Shown one piece after another: positions 2,917 to 19,269 of a stretch of DNA of 23,694 nt. Position 1 is the first letter of the stretch. Each line of letters begins with the position of its first letter. The notes under the pieces were generated by a model. The model was not told the origin of the DNA. It did no database searches and saw only the letters and a program-made list of their open reading frames with translations. The position numbers and the translations under genes were made by a program. The stretch lies in IMG/VR virus record IMGVR_UViG_3300037070_010231, positions 1 to 23,694 of that record; one strand, given 5' to 3'. Source of the stretch: a virus.

Positions 2917-3789
2917 TTAAATATCCTGCTCGCTCCGCATCCCCAAGAAGATGGGGTGCCGCGGCAGGTCTTTCATGCCGACCTTCAGGTATTTGAATTT
3001 TACCTGCTGGCCGACGATGCTGTTGCGCAGGAACCAGAGCGACTTGCGGTCCGCCTCCGTGAACCCGCTGCCGATGTTGAACGTCTTGCCTTTCCAGCCC
3101 ACGACCAGCGCGCCCAGCATGCCGCCCCCGGTCTTGTTCTCCTGGTGCGACGAGCGCTTCGTGTAGCCGCGTTCGTCGATTGTAGCTTCGTTGCCGTTGC
3201 GCTGCAACTCCTCAACTCCCAGGATAACGGCCTCGTCGTCCTCGAAACGCTTGATCTTGACCAGGCCCTGCTCGCCGAGCGTGCTGCGCCCGAACTTGTA
3301 GGGCGCCCGCGGGTCGCGCAGGATAACGCCCTCGTAACCCATTGCCAGCGCCTCGCTTTCGAAGCGGCTGGCGGCGTCCATGTCATGCAGCCAGACCTGC
3401 GGCACGCGCTGCACCAGCGCGCCGTGCGACTTGAGCCTGGCCTCGCGCTCTACGAACGGGTCGCCGGGCGCGGTCACGCAGTCGAAGACGTAGAACGTGA
3501 CGCGCGGCATGCCGCCCTCGGTCATGACCGCGCGCGTCGTGTTGTTGAACGCCTTGGGCGAGTTGGGCGCGCCGGCAATCAGCTCGCCGTCGTAGCCGTC
3601 GGGCACCACGGCCTTGGCCAGCTTCTGCAGGTGCCGGTTGGGAATGGGCTTGAGCGTGCGGCTCAGCAGCACGCCGCCCAGCTTGACCGCGCGCACGCCG
3701 TCGATCTTGTAACTGCCCAGCAGCGGGTAGCGCAGCAGCGCCAGGTCCGCGCACGGCGCGCCCAGCATCGGCCTGAAGTTCAAAGCCAT
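2917..3789 (-). CDS. ATP-dependent DNA ligase
   Basis: 290 residues from ATG 3789 (MALNFRPMLG), chosen because GGAG lies nine bases upstream and because the upstream in-frame sequence does not look like ligase. Nucleotidyltransferase motifs are in order: motif I SYKIDGVRA with nucleophile Lys28, Glu69 in DGELI, motif III FYVFDCV (99-105), motif IV YEGVILR (152-158), motif V LVKIKR (177-181). A short OB-fold-like tail follows. It joins nicks in phage DNA during replication or repair, using ATP. It is shorter than T4 ligase and near the length of T7-type and small bacterial ATP ligases. It overlaps the upstream membrane-protein gene by 10 bases. Confidence 0.93.
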   Translation of the reverse strand: MALNFRPMLGAPCADLALLRYPLLGSYKIDGVRAVKLGGVLLSRTLKPIPNRHLQKLAKAVVPDGYDGELIAGAPNSPKAFNNTTRAVMTEGGMPRVTFYVFDCVTAPGDPFVEREARLKSHGALVQRVPQVWLHDMDAASRFESEALAMGYEGVILRDPRAPYKFGRSTLGEQGLVKIKRFEDDEAVILGVEELQRNGNEATIDERGYTKRSSHQENKTGGGMLGALVVGWKGKTFNIGSGFTEADRKSLWFLRNSIVGQQVKFKYLKVGMKDLPRHPIFLGMRSEQDI

Positions 3790-4329: not shown

Positions 4330-4770
4330 CTACGCCTGGGCGAGCGCATCGGCCGCGGTGCCGTCTGCCCAGCCGAAGTAGCCGCCGTGCTTCGTCCACA
4401 ACCCGATGCCCGCCTCCTGCTCCGCGTCGAGGTTGCAGCGCGCGGCGATGATGATCCGGCACGGCGTGGCGAGCAGCGCCTTGACGCAGTGCCAGCACGG
4501 CGCGGTCGTGATGTAGGTGAAGCGGATGCGGTCGGTCTCGCGGCAATGCAGCAGCGCGTTGATTTCCGCGTGCAGCCCCTCGCAGCGCCCGAGGCAGGCG
4601 CCCTTGTCCAGGCAGTTGGCGACGCCGCCCGGCCGCCCGTTGTAGCCCGCGCTTAGGATGCGGCCGCCGGCGTCGGTCAGCACGCAGCCGACCTGGCGCT
4701 GGCGGCACGCGGCGCGCATGGCCAGCATCGCCGCGACGCGGATCATGGTCGTATCGAGCGAGGGCCTCAT
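4330..4770 (-). CDS. Deoxycytidylate (dCMP) deaminase family enzyme
   Basis: 146 residues from ATG 4770. Catalytic zinc motifs are present: HAE (His67-Ala-Glu69) and PCWHC (Cys92, Cys95). The family's GYNGRPGGVANC segment (42-53) and extra cysteines (CLDKGACLGRC) suggest a second, structural zinc as in T4 dCMP deaminase. Family role: dCMP to dUMP, feeding dTMP synthesis. Its ATG overlaps the stop of the ThyA-like gene as ATGA, so the two are coupled. If that neighbour acts on dCMP rather than dUMP, this enzyme may instead supply dUMP to a host synthase or deaminate a modified dCMP. The substrate cannot be fixed from sequence. Confidence 0.9.
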   Translation of the reverse strand: MRPSLDTTMIRVAAMLAMRAACRQRQVGCVLTDAGGRILSAGYNGRPGGVANCLDKGACLGRCEGLHAEINALLHCRETDRIRFTYITTAPCWHCVKALLATPCRIIIAARCNLDAEQEAGIGLWTKHGGYFGWADGTAADALAQA

Positions 4771-5552
4771 ACGTAGAGCTGATACTTGATGGCGGGGTAA
4801 GGATCGTAGCCGACGATCACGGCGTCTTCCGCACGGAACGCGTCGATGCCCGGCCCGCCGAGCAGCAACCTGGGCGATTCGACCGGCGTGCGCTTCAGCT
4901 GCTCGCGCAGCTGCGGGATGTGGCCTTCGTAAATGTGCGCGTCGCCGAAGAACCACGTAACCTGGCCTGCATGGAGCTCGAGTTCCTGCGCCAGCAGTTC
5001 CAGCAACAGGCCGTAAAGCGCCATGTCCGCGGGCAGGCCCAGGCACAGGTCGACGCTGCGCATGGTGACGCACATGTCCAAATACTCGTGGTCGATCTGG
5101 AACTGCGCCAGCAGGTGGCATGGCGGCAGGCACATTTCGGGCAGGTCCGAAGGGTTCCAGGTCGTCAGCACGTGGCGGCGGTTCCACGGATCGTCGCGCA
5201 GCCCGTGCAGCAGCGCCGCGATCTGGTCGTGAACGCCGTTCCAGTAGCGCCACTGGTAGCCGTAGATCTTGCCGACCTTGCCCGCGCCTGGGCGCCACGC
5301 CTCGGCGTTAGGCGTCCAGTAGTTGCAGCCCATATCCGTGAACGTCTTCAGCGCGGTGCTGCCGGTCAGGAACGCCGCGAGCTCGGCGGCGATCGGCTTG
5401 ATGTTCATGGCGCGCGTCGTGACTAGCGGGAATTGCTGGCGCATGCCGTAGCTCAGCGACTCGCCGAACTTGGCGCGCGTCGGGCCGAGGCGCGTGCGCC
5501 TGGGCCGGCCGCCGGCCAGCACCCGCTCCAGCAAAGTAAGATATTCAACCAT
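4767..5552 (-). CDS. Thymidylate-synthase fold dCMP hydroxymethylase/methylase candidate
   Basis: 261 residues. ATG 5552 has AGAGGAG seven bases upstream. ThyA-family landmarks: Glu57 (ELAAFL), YGYQWR (98-102), RRHVLTTWNP, catalytic Cys145 in PPCH, MRSVD (164-168), LGLPADMALYG (171-181), and DAHIYEGH with His206 and Tyr208. Thymidylate synthases have Gln-Arg-Ser at 164-166 and Asn at 176 (LGLPFN). Here these are Met164 and Asp176, the residues I recall at the matching places of T4 dCMP hydroxymethylase (NMRSND...ND). The Asn/Asp switch is known to govern dUMP versus dCMP choice. The C-terminus (IKYQLYV) also differs from the usual IKAPVAI. Likely reaction: folate-dependent C5 hydroxymethylation or methylation of dCMP. 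Plain thymidylate synthase is the alternative. Confidence 0.85.
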   Translation of the reverse strand: MVEYLTLLERVLAGGRPRRTRLGPTRAKFGESLSYGMRQQFPLVTTRAMNIKPIAAELAAFLTGSTALKTFTDMGCNYWTPNAEAWRPGAGKVGKIYGYQWRYWNGVHDQIAALLHGLRDDPWNRRHVLTTWNPSDLPEMCLPPCHLLAQFQIDHEYLDMCVTMRSVDLCLGLPADMALYGLLLELLAQELELHAGQVTWFFGDAHIYEGHIPQLREQLKRTPVESPRLLLGGPGIDAFRAEDAVIVGYDPYPAIKYQLYV

Positions 5553-5841
5553 TGTTATGCTCCTCTGCCATGGCGGCGAAGATGGCGTAATTGATCAAGT
5601 CCATTATGCTGTCCACATACGTGGCCTGGTTATTGGTCATCGTCGAGCGCATGCGCAGCGCCTTGACGTGGACCATCTGGTAGTAGCTGACACGCCCGAG
5701 CGGAAAGTAATCGGCAAGCTGCACGCCGCCCGTGTTGTATTGCGCCCCGCGTTCTTGCTGCAAGAGGCCGAGGCGGCCAAGAACCCGCAGATACGGATCC
5801 TTGGCCGTGGCCAACGCTGCAAGGAGTTCAGCGTCGGTCAT
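5545..5841 (-). CDS. DUF1599-like small protein
   Basis: 98 residues from ATG 5841 (MTDAELLAAL). This start is chosen because the preceding gene stops five bases earlier; the Shine-Dalgarno site is weak, so coupling is likely. The C-terminal half (FPLGRVSYYQMVHVKALRMRS...VDSIMDLINYAIFA) matches the helical pattern 'Lys-x-x-Arg ... Asp-Ser-x-x-Asp-Leu-x-Asn-Tyr-Ala' of DUF1599 proteins. From memory, that family has been proposed as a nucleotide-modification-associated domain in phages. It overlaps the ThyA-like gene by 8 bases. A role in nucleotide or base modification is inferred from family and neighbours; no enzymatic activity is claimed. Confidence 0.65.
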   Translation of the reverse strand: MTDAELLAALATAKDPYLRVLGRLGLLQQERGAQYNTGGVQLADYFPLGRVSYYQMVHVKALRMRSTMTNNQATYVDSIMDLINYAIFAAMAEEHNNG

Positions 5842-5845
5842 AAGG

Positions 5846-6295
5846 TTACGCCGCCTTCTTGATTTCGCCGTCCTTGCGCATCTTGTTGCGGTACCAGGCA
5901 ACGCACTGCGCGTTGGTGCTGGAATCCGGATGCGCCTTCAGCGCCTTCTCGGCGACCTCGGCATTAGTCAGTTCCTGATCTTTCTTGATCAGCTCGCGGA
6001 TCGTCGCGCCGACGCCGGTGCGCAGGCGTCCGGTGCCGGTCGTTGCGGCCGCGGCCTTCTTACCCTTGCCTTTGCCCTTGGCCGGCTTGTCCTTGCCGTT
6101 CGCCTTTGCTGCCTTGTCTTTCTTCGGTCGTGCCATTGTATTGCTCCTTTCGGATTTGCCGGCTGTCTCCGCCGCCGGCTGCGCGGCTTCGTATCGGGCG
6201 ATCGCTTTCTCTAGCTGTGCGTTACTCATCTCAGTCGGGCACTTTGCCTTGGCATCGCGCCAGGCCAGCCGTGTGTAACGTTTCACTAGATCCAC
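5846..6295 (-). CDS. Lys-rich small phage protein with two possible starts
   Basis: 149 residues from ATG 6295, which has GAGGTG eight bases upstream and a promoter just before it. A second in-frame ATG at 6136 (MARPKKDKAAK, 96 residues) has its own strong AAGGAG, so long and short forms may both be made. After the first ~50 residues comes a Lys/Ala/Gly-rich linker, then a folded C-terminal part with TIRELI, LTNAEV, NAQCVAWYRNKMR. The same order (TIREGI, MSNEAI, NTTMACVYWYQSRF) occurs in the 93-aa protein at 16364-16645, so the two are paralogues. DNA binding through the basic linker is plausible. Function unknown. Confidence 0.7.
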   Translation of the reverse strand: MDLVKRYTRLAWRDAKAKCPTEMSNAQLEKAIARYEAAQPAAETAGKSERSNTMARPKKDKAAKANGKDKPAKGKGKGKKAAAATTGTGRLRTGVGATIRELIKKDQELTNAEVAEKALKAHPDSSTNAQCVAWYRNKMRKDGEIKKAA

Positions 6296-6361: not shown

Positions 6362-7747
6362 TTAGTCCCTGGTTTCTGCCTTGCGATATTCCTTGAGGCG
6401 CGCCAGCAGCGCCGACTGGTTACGGCTCTTGTCCTGCAGCGCGGCGACCACGGCCTGGTCGACGGTCTTGCGCGCTATGATATGGTGCACGATGACGCGC
6501 TGCTTCTGGCCGCTGCGCCAGATGCGCCGGATCAGCTGGTCGTATTCCTCCAGGTTCCAGGTCAGGCCGTACCAGCACAGGTGGTGCGCGTTCTCCTGCA
6601 TGTTCAGGCCGTGCGATACCGATGCCGGGTGCACGAGCAGGACCGGCAGCTTGCCTGCGTTCCAGTTGTGCACGATATGCTCGGCTACCTTGCCGCTGAC
6701 ACCGCCGCCGAGGTAAGGTATCGTCGCGCCGAGGCGCGCGCGGATTTGCGCAACCTCGGACAGGAACGACACGCTGACCAGCAGCGGCGAGCCCTGCAGT
6801 TCCTCGACCAGATCGTCGAGCGCGTCCAGCTTGGCGTCGTGCAGCACGTGCGCCGCGCCGTCGGCCATGTAGACGCTGCCGTTCGTGGCCTGGCGCAGCT
6901 TGGTCGACAGCGCCGCGGCGTTGACCGCCACGACGTCGCCCTTCTCGAGCTCGACGAAGAAGTCGCGCTCCAGTTTCTTGTAGACCTGGCGCGCGGCGTC
7001 GGGCAACTCGACCTCGATGGTGTTGTAGACCAGCGGCGGCAGCTCGATCCAGTCCTTGGCGTCGAGGCGCATCACGATCGGCTTGATCTTGCGCGCCACC
7101 TCTTCCCACGCGCCCGGCCGCGGCAGCCATTGGTAGCCGAGGTAGCCGCCCTGCACCATGTAACGGTTGCGGAACTTCGTGATATGCGGGCCGAGCGCCT
7201 TGCCGCCATCCATGATATACACCTGCGCGAACACGTCGCCCAGCCCGTTGGGCGCAGGCGTGCCGGTCAGGATCCAACGCCGGTCGAACTTGTCGAGATA
7301 CCGGCACAGCAGCTTGGTGCGCTGCGCTTTCCAGCTCTTGAACTTGGTCGACTCGTCGACGACCAGCACGTCCCACGGCCACTTCTCCGGGTTGACCTTG
7401 GCGAATAGCCAGGCCAGCCCTTCCGGATTGATCAGGCTGACGTCGACGCGATCGGTCAGCAGGTCATCTTTGTCGCCGCCGTGCAGCACGTTGAACTTCA
7501 GGTGGTGAAAGTCGGTCCACTTCCTGAGCTCGCCCGGCCACGTCAGCTGGGCGACGCGCAGCGGCGCTATCACCAGCGCCCGCTTCAGGTTCTTTTCCTG
7601 CTTCAGCGCGGTCAGCGCGGCCAGCACGATGCTGGTCTTGCGCAGGCCCGGGTCCAGCCACAGCCCTGCGCCCGGCTTGTCGAGCAGGAACTTGACGCCG
7701 CGCAGCATGTATTTGGTTGGCACCCATTTTTGACTCGAGGAGAGCAT
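6362..7747 (-). CDS. SNF2-like DEAD/DEAH-type DNA helicase
   Basis: 461 residues from ATG 7747, with AAGGA eight bases upstream inside the VRR-NUC gene. Superfamily 2 motifs in order: Walker A-type LDPGLRKT (31-38), motif Ia VIAPLRV, Walker B VLVVDEST (Asp131-Glu132), motif III TGTPAPN (161-167), and motif VI DQLIRRIWRSGQ near the C-terminus. The P-loop has Arg36 where Gly is usual (GLGKT), while Lys37 and Thr38 are kept. Phages often place this helicase next to a VRR-NUC nuclease and a family A polymerase, as here. It is likely an ATP-driven DNA translocase in replication or repair. Confidence 0.9.
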   Translation of the reverse strand: MLSSSQKWVPTKYMLRGVKFLLDKPGAGLWLDPGLRKTSIVLAALTALKQEKNLKRALVIAPLRVAQLTWPGELRKWTDFHHLKFNVLHGGDKDDLLTDRVDVSLINPEGLAWLFAKVNPEKWPWDVLVVDESTKFKSWKAQRTKLLCRYLDKFDRRWILTGTPAPNGLGDVFAQVYIMDGGKALGPHITKFRNRYMVQGGYLGYQWLPRPGAWEEVARKIKPIVMRLDAKDWIELPPLVYNTIEVELPDAARQVYKKLERDFFVELEKGDVVAVNAAALSTKLRQATNGSVYMADGAAHVLHDAKLDALDDLVEELQGSPLLVSVSFLSEVAQIRARLGATIPYLGGGVSGKVAEHIVHNWNAGKLPVLLVHPASVSHGLNMQENAHHLCWYGLTWNLEEYDQLIRRIWRSGQKQRVIVHHIIARKTVDQAVVAALQDKSRNQSALLARLKEYRKAETRD

Positions 7748-7994
7748 CGAAATCGTCCTTATTGTTGATGACGCGGCACTCGCAGCTATGCCCCCATAGC
7801 TTCTTGAGTATATGACCTTGCAGTGGCGACAGCACGCCGCGCTTGGTTTTAAGTTCTATCCATATAAAATGCCCGCCCGGCGCTATCAGTATCCTGTCGG
7901 GCCAGCCCTTGCGCCGCTCCATTTTCACGAACAGGCAGCCGCAGGCCTCGGCTTTGCGCTTGCAGTAACGCTCCAGCGATGACTCAAGTTGCAT
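7464..7994 (-). CDS. VRR-NUC domain nuclease
   Basis: 176 residues from ATG 7994. The first ~95 residues form a complete VRR-NUC (PD-(D/E)XK) domain: Glu4/Glu8 in the first helix, GWPDRI (Asp33), WIELKTK (Glu47, Lys49), LSPLQ (Gln59) and DDFDALLE near its end. Family members are DNA nucleases often found beside phage SNF2 helicases. No stop follows the domain, and the frame runs on 284 bases inside the helicase gene, giving an Arg/Ala-rich tail that looks like out-of-frame helicase coding. The tail is probably incidental, or the original stop was lost. It overlaps the HNH gene end by 11 bases. Confidence 0.8.
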   Translation of the reverse strand: MQLESSLERYCKRKAEACGCLFVKMERRKGWPDRILIAPGGHFIWIELKTKRGVLSPLQGHILKKLWGHSCECRVINNKDDFDALLESKMGANQIHAARRQVPARQAGRRAVAGPGPAQDQHRAGRADRAEAGKEPEAGAGDSAAARRPADVAGRAQEVDRLSPPEVQRAARRRQR

Positions 7995-8277
7995 AGTCCC
8001 GCCTCGTAAAATGCCAACCGCCTTTGCTTGGATTGCGCCGGTCGCGCTTTACTGTATCCCGGTTATTATCTGTAGCAGTGCCAAGGTATAAATGCTTGAC
8101 ATTGATGCACGCCGGGTTGTCGCACTTGTGCAGCACAAGCATGCCTTTAGGTATAGGCCCGTATAATTCTTGCCACATCCAACGGTGCGCACGAGTCTGC
8201 CCTTTGCGCTTTACCTTGCCATAGCCGCTGGCATAGCGTCCGGCCTTCCACTCGATGCACTTGGTTAGTATCGGCAC
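7984..8277 (-). CDS. Free-standing HNH endonuclease
   Basis: 97 residues from GTG 8277, chosen because upstream in-frame sequence is out-of-frame coding of the nuclease gene. RAHRWMWQELYGPIP precedes the core VLHKCDNPACINVKHLYLGT with His50, Asn59 and His62, then DNNRD. This is the HNH layout of phage homing endonucleases (HNH_3 type). The Cys pair (Cys52, Cys57) may support zinc binding. Its DNA is poorer in GC than its neighbours (27 of 60 bases in 8041-8100 against 37 of 60 in 8341-8400), fitting later arrival. It nevertheless overlaps both neighbours by 11-13 bases. Confidence 0.85.
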   Translation of the reverse strand: MPILTKCIEWKAGRYASGYGKVKRKGQTRAHRWMWQELYGPIPKGMLVLHKCDNPACINVKHLYLGTATDNNRDTVKRDRRNPSKGGWHFTRRDYAT

Positions 8278-8933
8278 GGCCCGCCCTTGTGCCGGGTGAA
8301 CGGGCAGAATGTGCACGCGTCGCCGGGCGTCGGCTTCCACGCGCGCTCCTCTTCGATCGCCTTGAACCGGCGTTGGAAGTCGGTCCGGATACTCAGCAGT
8401 TCCTTGCGCGTGACCGGGTCGAACGGCAGTATCTGCCCGCGCTCGACGAACCACAACTCGAGGCGCGCTGTGTTCAGCTTGGGCTTGCGCAGCAACGCCA
8501 GCATGCCGTAGAACCTGACCTGCAGCGGCGACGCCGACCGCACCTGGCCGGTCTTGAAGTCGATGACCTTGCACTCGTCGGCGCGCTCGGTCATGGCGTC
8601 GACCTTGGCGCGGATATAGTCGGCATCGGAGAAGTAGCCGGTCATGGGCAGCGGCGCCCAGCCGCGGTCGAAGCCCCATGCCTCTTCGCCGGTCAGCGAC
8701 TTGTCCTTGGCCAGCGCCTGCACCTGCTTCTTCAGCGGCGCAGCTTCCTCGGGTATCAGCTTGCTGCGCCCTTTCAGGAACTGGTCGAGGCCGGTGTGCA
8801 CGCGCCCGCCCTTGACGAATGCCTTGTTCTCGGGCTCCTTGCGCTTCTCGATATGCTTCAGCTTGAACTTCAGCGCGCAGTCGAAGTCGGACAGGCGCGA
8901 CCAGGTATGTGCTCCATCGTAGCGTGCTACCAT
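8265..8933 (-). CDS. Cas4/RecB-like PD-(D/E)XK nuclease with four cysteines
   Basis: 222 residues from ATG 8933 (MVARYDGAHTWS), with AAGGAG upstream; the ATG lies in the end of the polymerase gene. Nuclease motifs: His46 in RVHTGLD, Asp112 in AKVDAM, IDFKTG with Asp125 and Lys127, and Gln138 with FYGML. One N-terminal Cys19 plus Cys207, Cys210 and Cys220 in the C-terminal CTFC...GGPC match the split iron-sulphur cysteine layout of Cas4, AddB and Dna2 nucleases. The likely role is an exonuclease acting with the polymerase in phage replication or recombination. The iron-sulphur cluster is inferred from the cysteine spacing. Confidence 0.85.
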   Translation of the reverse strand: MVARYDGAHTWSRLSDFDCALKFKLKHIEKRKEPENKAFVKGGRVHTGLDQFLKGRSKLIPEEAAPLKKQVQALAKDKSLTGEEAWGFDRGWAPLPMTGYFSDADYIRAKVDAMTERADECKVIDFKTGQVRSASPLQVRFYGMLALLRKPKLNTARLELWFVERGQILPFDPVTRKELLSIRTDFQRRFKAIEEERAWKPTPGDACTFCPFTRHKGGPCRY

Positions 8934-10744
8934 GCAGGCTCCTTTTTCATTGCGCCCCAATGCGGGCCGACCTCGGCGTCGCTCAGCATCGGCACGTCCA
9001 TCTCTATACTGCACATGAGCCGGCCTATCTCTATGGCCAGCTCCTTCTGCTGCCTGGCGCTGCCCGGCATCGACCAGGATATCTCGTCGTGCACGTCCAG
9101 CATCAGCCTGCCGGGCAAGCCGGCTTCCCACAGGCGGCACAGCGCTTCCTTGGTAACGTCGGCGGCGCTGCCCTGTATCAGGTAGTTCAGCATCTTGTAC
9201 TCGAACGAGCGCATGCGCCCGTCAACGAACGCCGGCGGCGCGCAGTAATACTCGCGCCCGCCCCATGTGCGGAACGGCTCGCCTTCCTTGGCACGCATGG
9301 CAAGCGACTGTTGCAGCCCGCGCAGCCCGGGAAACAGCGCAAGGTAAGCAGACCGCACGCGCCGCGCTTCGCCATCGCCGATGCCCAGCCTGTAGGCCAG
9401 CTCGCCGTTGCCCATGCCGTAGAGGATGCTGAACGCGATCATCTTGGCGATGCCGCGCGCGTCGTCGTAGCGATTGACCTTGATCTGCACGTCCTGGCGC
9501 ATCAGGTCGAGGTGCGCGAGATTGTCGGCGGCGTGCTGGTGAAAATCGATCTTCGGGTTGTCGAGGTACATCTGCCTCAGCTCGCCGCCAGCCATGTGCG
9601 CCAGTATCCTCAGCTCCTGCTGGCTGAAGTCGCGGCGCAGCCACATCTGCCCGTCGTCCGGGTAGAAGTAGCGCTTGAACGTCGGTATCGGCGGCAGCCC
9701 GTGCGTGCCGCTCAGGTCCTCGGCTTTCAGGTATTTGGGTATGTTCTGCCAGTTAGGGCTGCTACTCTTGCGGCCCGTCGCCGCGCCCTTGTCTTCGCCC
9801 TTGACCTGGTTCCAGTCCGTGTAGAGCCGATCCCAACTACCAGCCAGCATCGCGTTCCATGGACGTAGGTATAGCGTAAGCGCAGTCTCAACTTTGCCGC
9901 GGTATTGTAGCAAGGCCAGAAGTTTCTTGTCCTTGACGCCTTGTAGAAGAGAGTTCTTGTTGGCACTGTCCTTGCCTCCCGGTGTTTTCAGCCAGTTGCC
10001 GCCCTTGCCGGCCTTGTCGATGGCCTTGATAAGCTTGAGCGGCGAGCCTGGGTTCAGGCCCGGCGCGCGCAGCGCCTTGCGGATGATCTTGTCGACGTCG
10101 AACAGCGCCTGCTCCGCCTGCTCGCGGTCGCCGATGATTGCAGCGCGATCTACATGGATGCCGCGGCGCGAGTTATCGAGCAGCATGGGCAACAGCCTGC
10201 GCTCGCGGTCATAAGCATCGCGCATCTTGCGCTTCTGTATCTCGGGCATCAGCAATTTGAACAGCTTCTCGGTGCGCATCGTGTCGCCATGGGCGCGCTT
10301 GCGCATGAGCGGCTCGGGCGCGTAGCCGATCCACTTGCCCCAGCTCTTCTTGCCTTTGCTCTCGGGTATGTTGGCATAAATCCAATCTCTTAGCTCGCTT
10401 TGGTCCTCTTCGCCGATGTTCAGCAGCGCCGCGCTTGCCGGCTTCAGCGACAGGTTCTGGTAAGGGTCGTGCAGGAACAGCAGGAACTTCGTGTCGTGGA
10501 TGCGCCGCCAGGCGGGCATCGGCATGCCCAGCGCCTCGACCGCCACGGCCACGTCGAACGCTGCATTATGGAATAGCAGCTCCTCGTTGCCTTTGAAGAT
10601 CGGCGCGAGCTCGCGCTTCATGGCCTGCTCGCCGTAGGCGAAGATGGGCTTGCGCCCGAATGCCTTGATGCTGACGCACGTCGGTTTGGGCGGGAAGTTA
10701 GGGCGTGCCTCGATCGGCAGCGACTCGAAGTCAATGGTTATCAT
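8927..10744 (-). CDS. Family A DNA polymerase with 3'-5' exonuclease
   Basis: 605 residues from ATG 10744, with AGGAGG six bases upstream. Exonuclease domain: DFE (Asp5, Glu7), NAAFD (Asn60, Asp64) and probable third motif HGD (Asp154). Polymerase motif A RDFSQQELR (Asp372), motif B RGIAKMIAFSILYG (Arg430, Lys434, Phe438, Tyr442) and motif C VHDE (His552, Asp553, Glu554). All catalytic residues are present, so it should be an active proofreading replicase. Phe438, rather than Tyr as in T7 polymerase, is the E. coli Pol I state. There is no 5'-3' nuclease domain, as usual for phage enzymes. It heads the core replication genes and overlaps the Cas4-like gene by 7 bases. Confidence 0.95.
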   Translation of the reverse strand: MITIDFESLPIEARPNFPPKPTCVSIKAFGRKPIFAYGEQAMKRELAPIFKGNEELLFHNAAFDVAVAVEALGMPMPAWRRIHDTKFLLFLHDPYQNLSLKPASAALLNIGEEDQSELRDWIYANIPESKGKKSWGKWIGYAPEPLMRKRAHGDTMRTEKLFKLLMPEIQKRKMRDAYDRERRLLPMLLDNSRRGIHVDRAAIIGDREQAEQALFDVDKIIRKALRAPGLNPGSPLKLIKAIDKAGKGGNWLKTPGGKDSANKNSLLQGVKDKKLLALLQYRGKVETALTLYLRPWNAMLAGSWDRLYTDWNQVKGEDKGAATGRKSSSPNWQNIPKYLKAEDLSGTHGLPPIPTFKRYFYPDDGQMWLRRDFSQQELRILAHMAGGELRQMYLDNPKIDFHQHAADNLAHLDLMRQDVQIKVNRYDDARGIAKMIAFSILYGMGNGELAYRLGIGDGEARRVRSAYLALFPGLRGLQQSLAMRAKEGEPFRTWGGREYYCAPPAFVDGRMRSFEYKMLNYLIQGSAADVTKEALCRLWEAGLPGRLMLDVHDEISWSMPGSARQQKELAIEIGRLMCSIEMDVPMLSDAEVGPHWGAMKKEPAW

Positions 10745-16971: not shown

Positions 16972-17065
16972 TCGCGCGCGCGTACGCGCACGCGGATGCG
17001 CGCACGCGCTACGCGCACGCACCCGCGCGCGCCTGGCCGCGCGCCCGCGCGCCCGCGCGCGTATG
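16972..17065. repeat. Alternating CG/AC low-complexity tract
   Basis: Almost every base alternates purine and pyrimidine, mostly as CG with some TA, AC and AT steps, which favours left-handed DNA. It lies between two AT-rich stretches. It has no coding frame and no clear repeat unit. Confidence 0.6.
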
Positions 17066-17152: not shown

Positions 17153-17407
17153 TAGACATAGCTATACGGTTCGCGTGCGAACTTCAGGTGTACATTCGTA
17201 CAGTACTATAAATTAGAATAAAAATCATCAAGTTAGATGCGGGATACTGTGCGTGGCGCGCGTGCGGAGTGACTGGACGCGCGCGGAGTGACTCGCACCC
17301 ACGCGCGGGCGCGCTCCTTCCGCGTCCAGGCGCGCGAGGGGGTAGGTGGGGGCGCGCAAGGGCGCACCGCCCCTTTTACCGGGTTTATGCTACTTCCCGA
17401 CAGGAAA

Positions 17408-17494
17408 CAGGTAACTCTCCAGTACCTGGGAAGTAACAGGTAACTCTCCAGTACCTGGGAAGTAACAGGTAACTCTCCAGTACCTGGGAAGTAA
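17408..17494. repeat. Three perfect 29-bp tandem repeats before terS
   Basis: Identical units lie at 17408-17436, 17437-17465 and 17466-17494. Each carries an internal inverted repeat CAGGTA...TACCTG with a nine-base centre. The array ends 79 bases before the small terminase start. Iterated palindromic units at this place fit terminase binding (pac/cos-type) or replication-initiator binding. There are no spacers, so it is not a CRISPR. Confidence 0.8.
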
Positions 17495-17536
17495 CCCGGC
17501 ACTTATGTGACCCGCGCGCGCGCGCGTGGCGGGGAT

Positions 17537-17566
17537 TTGCGTAAAAGAGCGGCGGCGTGCTATAAG
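17537..17566 (+). promoter_or_regulatory. Possible promoter giving a leaderless terS transcript
   Basis: TATAAG at 17561-17566 ends seven bases before the A of ATG 17574, where transcription would start. TTGCGT (17537-17542) lies 18 bases upstream as a weak -35. No Shine-Dalgarno site precedes that ATG, consistent with a leaderless message. Confidence 0.35.
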
Positions 17567-17573
17567 CTGGCGC

Positions 17574-18311
17574 ATGAGGCAGAAGACATTGAGGAAGAAG
17601 CGCTACGACGTCCCGCAGCGCTACCAGGTATACGACCCGGACACGGGCATACTGAAGCTGGGCCCGCTGCCGGCAGGCCCGGCCAGGAGTATACTCGACA
17701 TCATGGACGAGGCCAGCAAGCGCACGGGCAACGGCCAGGGCATGGTGGAATACCTGGCGCATCACCCGGGCGAGTTCCTGCAGGCGCAACTGCGGACGCT
17801 GCCGGTAAAGCTGGCGGGCGGCGACGGCGGCCCCTTGCAGATCGAGCTGATCGACCCGACGAAGGGCATAACGGTTGAAGGAGAAGTCATTGGCAAGGAT
17901 ACAGCTGCCCGCGAACTGGATCGCAAGGCCTTACCAGGTGCCGTTCTGGCGCGCCATGATGAACAAGGTCAACCCGCTGAGAAGGGCCGCGGTCGTGTGG
18001 CCGAGAAGAGCCGGCAAGGACAGGACGGCGCTGGCGGTGACGAGCGTGAAGATGGCCGAAAAGCCCGCGGCGTACTGGCACATGCTGCCGACCAACGTGC
18101 AGGCGCGGAAGGTGATATGGGACGCCGTCGACCGGCAGACCGGGCTGCCGCTCGTGGACAGGGTGTTCCCAAAGGAGCTCGTCAAGGCCAAGAACGAGGC
18201 CGAGATGGGAATAGAGTTGAAGAACGGCAGCAAGTGGTACGCCGTGGGAAGCGACAACTACAACCGGCTGGTGGGAAGCGACCCGTTCGGGGTCGTGTTC
18301 AGCGAGTATAG
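17574..18311 (+). CDS. Small terminase subunit (probable)
   Basis: From ATG 17574 (MRQKTLRKKRYDVPQRYQ); a GTG at 17526 in the same frame is an alternative. About 105 residues precede the terL start: a basic N-terminus, PDTGILKLGPLPAGPARS, a helical MDEASKRTGNGQGMVEYLAHHPGEFLQAQLRTL, and an ending with IELIDPTKGITVEGEVIG. Position directly before terL and this length fit a small terminase, which recognises phage DNA for packaging. The frame has no stop after the expected end and continues 422 bases inside terL as a Gly/Arg/Gln-rich tail that looks like out-of-frame coding. Whether that tail is made is unclear. Confidence 0.6.
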   Translation: MRQKTLRKKRYDVPQRYQVYDPDTGILKLGPLPAGPARSILDIMDEASKRTGNGQGMVEYLAHHPGEFLQAQLRTLPVKLAGGDGGPLQIELIDPTKGITVEGEVIGKDTAARELDRKALPGAVLARHDEQGQPAEKGRGRVAEKSRQGQDGAGGDEREDGRKARGVLAHAADQRAGAEGDMGRRRPADRAAARGQGVPKGARQGQERGRDGNRVEERQQVVRRGKRQLQPAGGKRPVRGRVQRV

Positions 18312-19269
18312 CCTGGCCGACCCGGGCGCGTGGAATTATATACGCCCGATCCTGGCGGAGAACGGCGGCTGGGCCATGTTCCTGTATACCCCGCGCGGCA
18401 GGAACCACGGGTATACCATGTACAACATGGCGTGCAGCAACCCCGACTGGTTTTGCGAGCTGCTCAGCACCGAGCAGACCCGGCACATCAGCCTGGAGGA
18501 CATCGAGGTCGAGCGCAGGGCGGGCATGAGCGAGGAGCTGATACAGCAGGAGTTCTATTGCAGCTTCACGGCAGGCGCGGCGGGCAGCTACTACGGCAAA
18601 GAAATGGAGGAGATGAGGAAAGAGAAGCGGATCTGCGAGGTGCCTTACGACCCGAACTACGCGGTGGAGCTGTGGTTCGACCTGGGGTATAACGACGCGA
18701 CCGCGGTGTGGGTGATGCAGCCCAAGGGCATGCAGCTGTGCGCCGTGAGGTACGCGGAGTTCCAGGGCATGGGCATACCGCGCATAGCCAGGGAAGTACG
18801 CCAGTGGGGCTACAGGCTGGACCTGCTGAGATTGCCGCACGACGGCGACGTGCACGACCAGACGAGCGGGCGCACGCGCACGGAGACCTGGGAGGACGAG
18901 TTCAAAGCGCCGAGCGAGGTTTCGCCGAGGCCGAGGAACAAAGACCAGCTCGCGGAGCAGATCAACGCCGTGAGAAGGCTGCTGCCGAGCGTGTGGATGG
19001 ACAGCAAGCTGTGCGAGCAAGGCGCGTACGCACTGGAAAGCTACCACAGGGTCTACGACGAGAAATTGATGAGGACGCGCGACGAGCCCAGGCATGACTG
19101 GGCGAGCCACGGCGCGGACGCCGTGCGGACGGGCGCGGTGCGCCATGTGCCGGGGCTGTTCGGCGGCGGCGCGGAAGACAGTCGTGCTATGCTGCGCCAC
19201 AAGCCGCGGGTAATACGCGCGAGGGGCGGCAGGCGCGCGCCGCAGCCGGTGGACTGGCGCAATATCTAG
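17890..19269 (+). CDS. Large terminase subunit
   Basis: 459 residues from TTG 17890 (ARIQLPANWIARPYQVPFW), chosen because AAGGAG lies six bases before it; an upstream in-frame TTG at 17875 lacks such a site. ATPase: Walker A-type WPRRAGKDRTAL, Walker B GVVFSEYS with Glu, motif FLYTPRGRNHGY. Nuclease: WFDLGYNDATAVW (first Asp), LPHDGD, and HDWASHGADAVR (last Asp). It cuts concatemeric DNA and drives it into the prohead through the portal. Length fits podoviral-type large terminases. The 3' end is Arg-rich, and the stop is ten bases from the portal start. Confidence 0.93.
   Translation: MARIQLPANWIARPYQVPFWRAMMNKVNPLRRAAVVWPRRAGKDRTALAVTSVKMAEKPAAYWHMLPTNVQARKVIWDAVDRQTGLPLVDRVFPKELVKAKNEAEMGIELKNGSKWYAVGSDNYNRLVGSDPFGVVFSEYSLADPGAWNYIRPILAENGGWAMFLYTPRGRNHGYTMYNMACSNPDWFCELLSTEQTRHISLEDIEVERRAGMSEELIQQEFYCSFTAGAAGSYYGKEMEEMRKEKRICEVPYDPNYAVELWFDLGYNDATAVWVMQPKGMQLCAVRYAEFQGMGIPRIAREVRQWGYRLDLLRLPHDGDVHDQTSGRTRTETWEDEFKAPSEVSPRPRNKDQLAEQINAVRRLLPSVWMDSKLCEQGAYALESYHRVYDEKLMRTRDEPRHDWASHGADAVRTGAVRHVPGLFGGGAEDSRAMLRHKPRVIRARGGRRAPQPVDWRNI

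Follow-up and report, generated by a model that had tools for sequence, protein, structure and literature searches.

A phage ThyA-like enzyme with aspartate at the pyrimidine-specificity position, a predicted dCMP C5-methylase

The stretch of phage DNA analyzed here (a 23.7 kb virus record, called the window below) carries on its minus strand a gene for a ThyA-like protein in which the two residues associated with the choice of pyrimidine have been replaced. By comparison with characterized relatives, dCMP is very probably the substrate of this enzyme, and we assign a probability of about 0.6 to the reading that it is a ThyA-type dCMP C5-methylase (5-methyl-dCMP synthase). The observations comprise the sequence, the predicted fold, the residues, the clade and the gene context.

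The gene and its active-site residues

The open reading frame runs from an ATG at position 5552 down to 4767 and encodes 261 aa; the plus-strand translation across the same positions is broken by a stop. The protein matched Pfam PF00303 (E = 4.9e-73; 246 bits against a curated cut-off of 24.3), and its AlphaFold2 model (pLDDT 94) was superposed on canonical thymidylate synthases with a Z of 37 and an rmsd of 1.2-1.3 Å over 257 residues, C-terminal tail included. The profile score and the thymidylate synthase (TS) fold together place it in the PF00303 superfamily.

A first-pass annotation had described a ThyA homologue retaining the catalytic Cys, the Arg/Ser phosphate-binding segment and the His/Tyr pair; these were found as Cys145, Arg165-Ser166, His206 and Tyr208, together with Asp168. 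The two substitutions that it had pointed out were also present in the minus-strand translation, Met164 replacing the Gln before Arg-Ser and Asp176 standing at E. coli Asn177. The C-terminus, which it had described as departing from IKAPVAI, reads AIKYQLYV, and its alignment with E. coli TS extends to the last residue (264). Retained in addition to the residues recorded there are His146 (E. coli His147), Trp79 and Leu142 (E. coli Leu143). Canonical dUMP enzymes are recognized by Asn at E. coli position 177 and dCMP-type enzymes by Asp, and the window protein has Asp.

Replacement of Asn by Asp at this position of TS leads to the use of dCMP, with 5-methyl-dCMP as the product (PMC8670742), and the choice between dUMP and dCMP has been located at position 177 (PMC8670742, PMC6400193). 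MilA and T4 gp42 share the Asp for cytosine (PMC5175136). Asp177 is one of the two TS residues that best separate modified from unmodified phage contigs, the other being at E. coli position 147 (PMC8670742). In other Asp-bearing lineages, too, a hydrophobic residue was found in place of the Gln before Arg-Ser (Met in T4, Xp15, AXL3, MilA and L045; Ile or Leu in Pamexviruses; Phe in S28C10), the GLPYDIAMYG clade keeping Gln. The T4 gp42 protein reads VVNMRSNDVVFGFRND (VVNMRSND); the Met that the first-pass annotation had ascribed to it is present, together with the Asp. From these alignments Met164 may be read as part of the cytosine switch, and not as proof of hydroxymethylation. The shift from dUMP to dCMP put forward by the first-pass annotation is thus supported by Asp176, by the hydrophobic residue at position 164 and by the published substitution (PMC8670742).

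Conservation of the substitutions and gene context

Viral and cellular homologues were collected by a profile scan with patterns that avoided positions 164 and 176 (80 viral and 80 cellular hits). The viral hits comprised 60 His-Gln-Asn, 14 His-Met-Asp, two Ile-Asn, two Met-Asn and two Gln-Asp sequences. Asn occupied position 177 in 64 of the 80 viral and in all 80 cellular hits, and Asp in none of the latter. Met164 and Asp176 occurred together in 14 of the 18 viral sequences having either (Fisher 9e-12, a value that is inflated and overstates independence because the loci are related). The pair was present in ten distinct phage relatives; the substitution is conserved and is not a sequencing accident. 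Two relatives found via their DNA polymerase (L147 and L145) encode TS proteins that share 42-47% identity with that of the window, as well as its MRSVD...LP.D motif and its gene module. In L145 the open frame of the TS gene (17357-18748, plus strand) spans 464 aa, the two TS halves being separated by some 180 additional in-frame residues; the insert resembles a homing endonuclease, yet Pfam matched only TS, and it is possibly an intron or an intein.

In the tree, Asn-type enzymes were split from the Asp clade of the window protein by a branch with 98% SH-aLRT support, and within the ThyA core parsimony required three substitutions at position 176. The GLPYDIAMYG clade (L017-L135) was considered as the closest kin and rejected, being a different Asp-bearing branch in which Gln is retained before Arg-Ser. 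The TS of this large phage clade has Asp177, retains His147 and adjoins a MazG-domain protein and ribonucleotide-reductase-like genes; no dCMP deaminase was recognized near it by reference search. This clade is probably cytosine-directed too.

The genes surrounding the ThyA-like gene are listed in Table 1. The dCMP deaminase gene starts 3 bases past the TS stop codon, and the DUF1599-like gene, which lies upstream, shares 8 bases with the start of the TS gene. The DUF1599-like protein was matched by tblastn to the C-terminal part of a Pamexvirus 'nucleotide pyrophosphohydrolase' that adjoins the Asp-type TS of those phages. Its AlphaFold2 model (pLDDT 76) gave MazG/PRA-PH chains among the top matches, with a weak Z of 6-7 that is a hint only, and a scan against viral contigs returned no confirmed relative. 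It is a candidate for an all-alpha NTP pyrophosphatase, whose task would be to remove dCTP. The records of the window phage gave no PRA-PH pyrophosphatase, an enzyme that relatives carry (PF01503, absent from the window); this makes the mode of dCTP exclusion less certain and counts against the methylase reading. The WYRNK-motif protein adjoins the TS in 9/16 Asp-type loci versus 0/64 Asn-type loci, sometimes in several copies. The family A DNA polymerase would incorporate the modified nucleotide. An HNH endonuclease ORF (PF13392, 1.1e-14; window 7987-8274, minus strand) located between VRR-NUC and PD-(D/E)XK nuclease genes is probably a homing element.

Table 1. Genes of the window around the ThyA-like gene
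Feature	Position	Strand	Evidence
ATP-dependent DNA ligase	2917..3786	-	PF01068 + PF14743
dCMP deaminase, zinc site HAE...PCxxC intact	4330..4764	-	PF00383 4.7e-15, phrog_174, alignment
ThyA-like enzyme, predicted dCMP C5-methylase (rival: hydroxymethylase)	4767..5552	-	PF00303, AlphaFold2 fold, alignments
DUF1599 (nucleotide modification associated domain 1)-like protein	5545..5841	-	PF07659 0.0016, below its cut-off
Lys/Ala-rich small protein, conserved C-terminal WYRNK motif	5846..6295	-	recurs beside Asp-type TS
SNF2-type helicase of shared replication module	6362..7747	-	conserved upstream of TS in relatives
Family A DNA polymerase	8927..10744	-	PF00476 4.8e-47

Among the viral loci, a dCMP deaminase was found near the TS in 15/16 Asp-type versus 4/64 Asn-type loci, an NTP-pyrophosphatase or DUF1599 gene in 16/16 versus 5/64, and a dihydrofolate reductase (DHFR) gene in 0/16 versus 33/64 (p 9e-5). 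The counts were repeated on a set thinned to <90% identity, with the same genes in 11/12 versus 2/50, 12/12 versus 4/50 and 0/12 versus 24/50 loci (p 0.002 for DHFR), an association that owes part to common descent, the Asp clade largely sharing one replication module. TS, dCMP deaminase and DNA ligase domains are statistically tied to modified-cytosine phage DNA (PMC8670742). The context of the Asp-type enzymes matches the cassette of cytosine-modified phages, and cytosine specificity is therefore well supported.

The window also encodes a head-tail connector (phrog_332), a major head protein, a terminase and nucleases. Two other metagenome records (L155 and L156; G001 and G002) are 100% identical to it over 7.4 and 14.2 kb, and one of the overlapping records continues beyond the end of the window, where it carries large genes that include a match to a family of internal virion proteins. 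A perfect tandem repeat (window 17406-17495; 29-bp unit AACAGGTAACTCTCCAGTACCTGGGAAGT, 3.1 copies) lies upstream of the terminase gene. A CG-rich simple repeat of alternating CG with 12-13 bp sub-periods was seen at window 16973-17061, where no genes were recognized.

Reaction product and alternative readings

In the ternary complex of the T4 hydroxymethylase, the role of activating the final water is assigned to Asp145, the third residue ahead of the catalytic Cys (Cys-3). The same Asp holds Ser94; the D145N variant is inactive, and in TS the position is occupied by Leu (PMC6400193). The hydroxymethylase signature is Asp or Glu at Cys-3 with Ser or Thr two residues before a Tyr (PMC6400193). 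Asp was present at Cys-3 in every hydroxymethylase aligned (T4, Xp15, AXL3 and ctUtU524 of the dCMP type; SPO1, M6 and L169-L172 of the dUMP type; MilA), the activity itself being predicted for Xp15, AXL3, ctUtU524 and L169-L172. In the window protein Leu142 is found at Cys-3, as in TS, and Lys95, followed by Ile96-Tyr97, at the Ser/Thr site; the latter site weighs less, with Gly in AXL3 and Ala or Gly in other predicted or dUMP hydroxymethylases. The Pamexvirus enzymes, of the 5-methylcytosine type, have Asn at Cys-3. Other members of the window clade also have Leu there; only those retrieved with the other search pattern (e.g. L191) count freely, because one pattern included that Leu. The C-terminal tail, which seals the active site of thymidylate synthase, is present. 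Leu142 and the retained tail thus indicate reductive methylation, a reaction that yields dihydrofolate.

The first-pass annotation had likened the protein to a dCMP hydroxymethylase, and this likeness did not hold: the signature is replaced by Leu142 and Lys95, the TS tail is present, and in the tree, one of the checks that it had proposed, the protein falls within the ThyA core and apart from T4, Xp15 and AXL3. Its broader suggestion of hydroxymethyl- or methyl-dCMP stands as far as a C5-modified dCMP is concerned, on residues and gene context, methyl being the more likely of the two. The absence of DHFR together with Met164 was at one point taken as a sign of hydroxymethylation, a reading reversed by the T4 ternary complex (PMC6400193) and by the table of Cys-3 residues. 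Variation of the C-terminal residues was dropped as a hydroxymethylase marker, cellular TS varying there too.

A dCMP hydroxymethylase, in which water would quench the exocyclic methylene to give 5-hydroxymethyl-dCMP and tetrahydrofolate, is an unlikely but not a negligible alternative, and would have been reached independently of T4 gp42 through another water-activating arrangement. The combination of Met164 and Asp176 is that of T4 gp42, Xp15 and AXL3, and the CMP hydroxymethylase MilA also has Met before Arg, whereas Xp12-type enzymes have Ile or Leu at this site. The retained His146 is a further point against methylation: Xp12-type enzymes have Pro there, and position 147 is one of the two that best separated modified from unmodified contigs (PMC8670742). 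The lack of DHFR near Asp-type loci would be expected if no dihydrofolate were made. No DHFR was found in two records overlapping the window, among the window ORFs scanned, or in 25 records searched from the window phage and its relatives, which may be fragments. All Pamexviruses carry the gene (PMC9206674). This absence counts against methylation, in which dihydrofolate would form, although the DHFR of the host could serve. The C-terminal residues of the window clade are more variable than those of canonical phage TS, a point offset by the variation among cellular enzymes. Against hydroxymethylation stand Leu142 in place of the water-activating Asp, Lys95 in place of Ser94 and the C-terminal tail; moreover, no tailoring carbamoyltransferase was found in 13 records, those of the window phage included, and no glucosyltransferase was recognized in the window with glycosyltransferase families covered in part.

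Two further readings are each highly improbable. The enzyme could serve a two-step thymidylate route, from dCMP to 5-methyl-dCMP and then, via the adjacent deaminase, to dTMP, bypassing dUMP; such a route would either replace a modified genome, with no modified base in the DNA, or run besides one. The adjacency of the TS and deaminase genes, their co-occurrence in Asp-type loci and the finding that an Asp-type TS is the sole TS gene in each of 12 Asp-type records are in its favor, but the NTP-pyrophosphatase-like genes of all 16 such loci fit dCTP exclusion and not dTMP supply, the DNA of the similar-cassette phages AXL1 and AXL3 withstands almost every enzyme whose site contains G/C, and a host normally has its own thymidylate synthase available. 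An ordinary dUMP thymidylate synthase that tolerates Asp176 would agree with the ThyA-like sequence and fold (the best PDB matches are canonical) and with His146, Leu142, Trp79 and the tail; it is hard to reconcile with the Asn found at position 177 in every cellular and most viral hits, with the pairing of Asp and Met164 in a clade that is conserved and has a non-random gene cassette, and with the placing of the dUMP/dCMP choice at position 177.

For the preferred dCMP C5-methylase, the substrate, the chemistry, the roles of the neighboring genes and the modified virion DNA are modeled on characterized relatives. Cys145 would attack C6 of dCMP, and Asp176, in place of Asn177, would hold and protonate N3 of cytosine, so that dCMP and not dUMP is accepted. 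The one-carbon unit would come from methylene-tetrahydrofolate, and, with the C-terminal tail closed over the site, the exocyclic methylene would be reduced by the folate hydride. The products would be dihydrofolate and 5-methyl-dCMP, the latter then being phosphorylated to 5-methyl-dCTP by kinases of the host. The level of dCTP would be reduced by the upstream DUF1599 protein, and the downstream dCMP deaminase would supply dUMP to the host thymidylate synthase. Insertion of 5-methylcytosine into the genome by the phage polymerase would then protect it from restriction. Cytosine modification is a known phage defense against bacterial restriction enzymes; to our knowledge, phages have few known ways of replacing all cytosines.

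If 5-methyl-dCMP is indeed the product, the enzyme would parallel, as a product of natural evolution, the Asn-to-Asp thymidylate synthase made in the laboratory, with the reduction machinery of TS intact. It would then be testable whether the Cys-3 residue and the C-terminal tail set methyl versus hydroxymethyl, and whether position 177 and the residue before Arg-Ser set base choice. The gene, which would ordinarily be labeled as a thymidylate synthase, would mark uncultured phages with probably modified cytosine, which bears on restriction, CRISPR and sequencing-library bias.

Comparison with known systems

The DNA of Stenotrophomonas phage AXL3 is cut by 2/37 enzymes, both with A/T-only sites (PMC7504290). 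AXL3 has a polymerase related to that of the window and a similar cassette, its own enzyme being of the hydroxymethylase type by residues, and its resistance to digestion agrees with altered G/C bases in a phage carrying a cassette of this kind. In L169-L175 (G004, G006-G011), which also have a related polymerase, an M6-like TS of the dUMP-hydroxymethylase type replaces the Asp-type enzyme. The pyrimidine-modifying enzyme therefore appears to have been exchanged between related phages, suggesting that thymine and cytosine modification systems are exchanged among them.

The MetaGPA modified-cytosine contigs (PMC8670742) share with the window an Asp177 TS with PF00383, PF14437 and a ligase (PF14743/PF01068), and differ in PF01503, found in the relatives of the window phage and not in the window. 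Canonical ThyA (E. coli, M. tuberculosis; 36-40% identity) has the same fold, length, catalytic residues, His147, Leu143 and tail, and differs in Asn177 and Gln165, which are Asp and Met in the window protein. T4 gp42 belongs to the same fold family and shares the Met before Arg-Ser and the Asp at the pyrimidine-specificity position, but it has Asp145, Ser94 and a Thr after the Cys (Leu142, Lys95 and His in the window protein), is without the C-terminal tail and is about 25% identical over part of its length.

In Xp12 all cytosines are 5-methylcytosine, and AXL1 and the Pamexviruses are Xp12 relatives (PMC9206674). The type was represented by the relatives PaMx28, AXL1 and Mallos, Xp12 itself not being in the collection under the accession tried. 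Xp12-type enzymes (Pamexvirus/Bosavirus) share with the window protein Asp at 177, a hydrophobic residue replacing the Gln before Arg-Ser, 5-methyl-dCMP as the predicted product and, in PaMx28 and AXL1, the gene order NTP-pyrophosphatase/DUF1599, TS, dCMP deaminase. They differ in Asn at Cys-3, Pro at 147 (Leu142 and His146 in the window protein), Ile/Leu at 165, another C-terminus and a DHFR gene, and, with about 29% identity to the window protein, they make up a clade of their own (100/100); the window protein did not group with the Pamexvirus TS in the tree. The acceptance of cytosine by the window enzyme has probably arisen on a branch separate from that of the Xp12-type enzyme.
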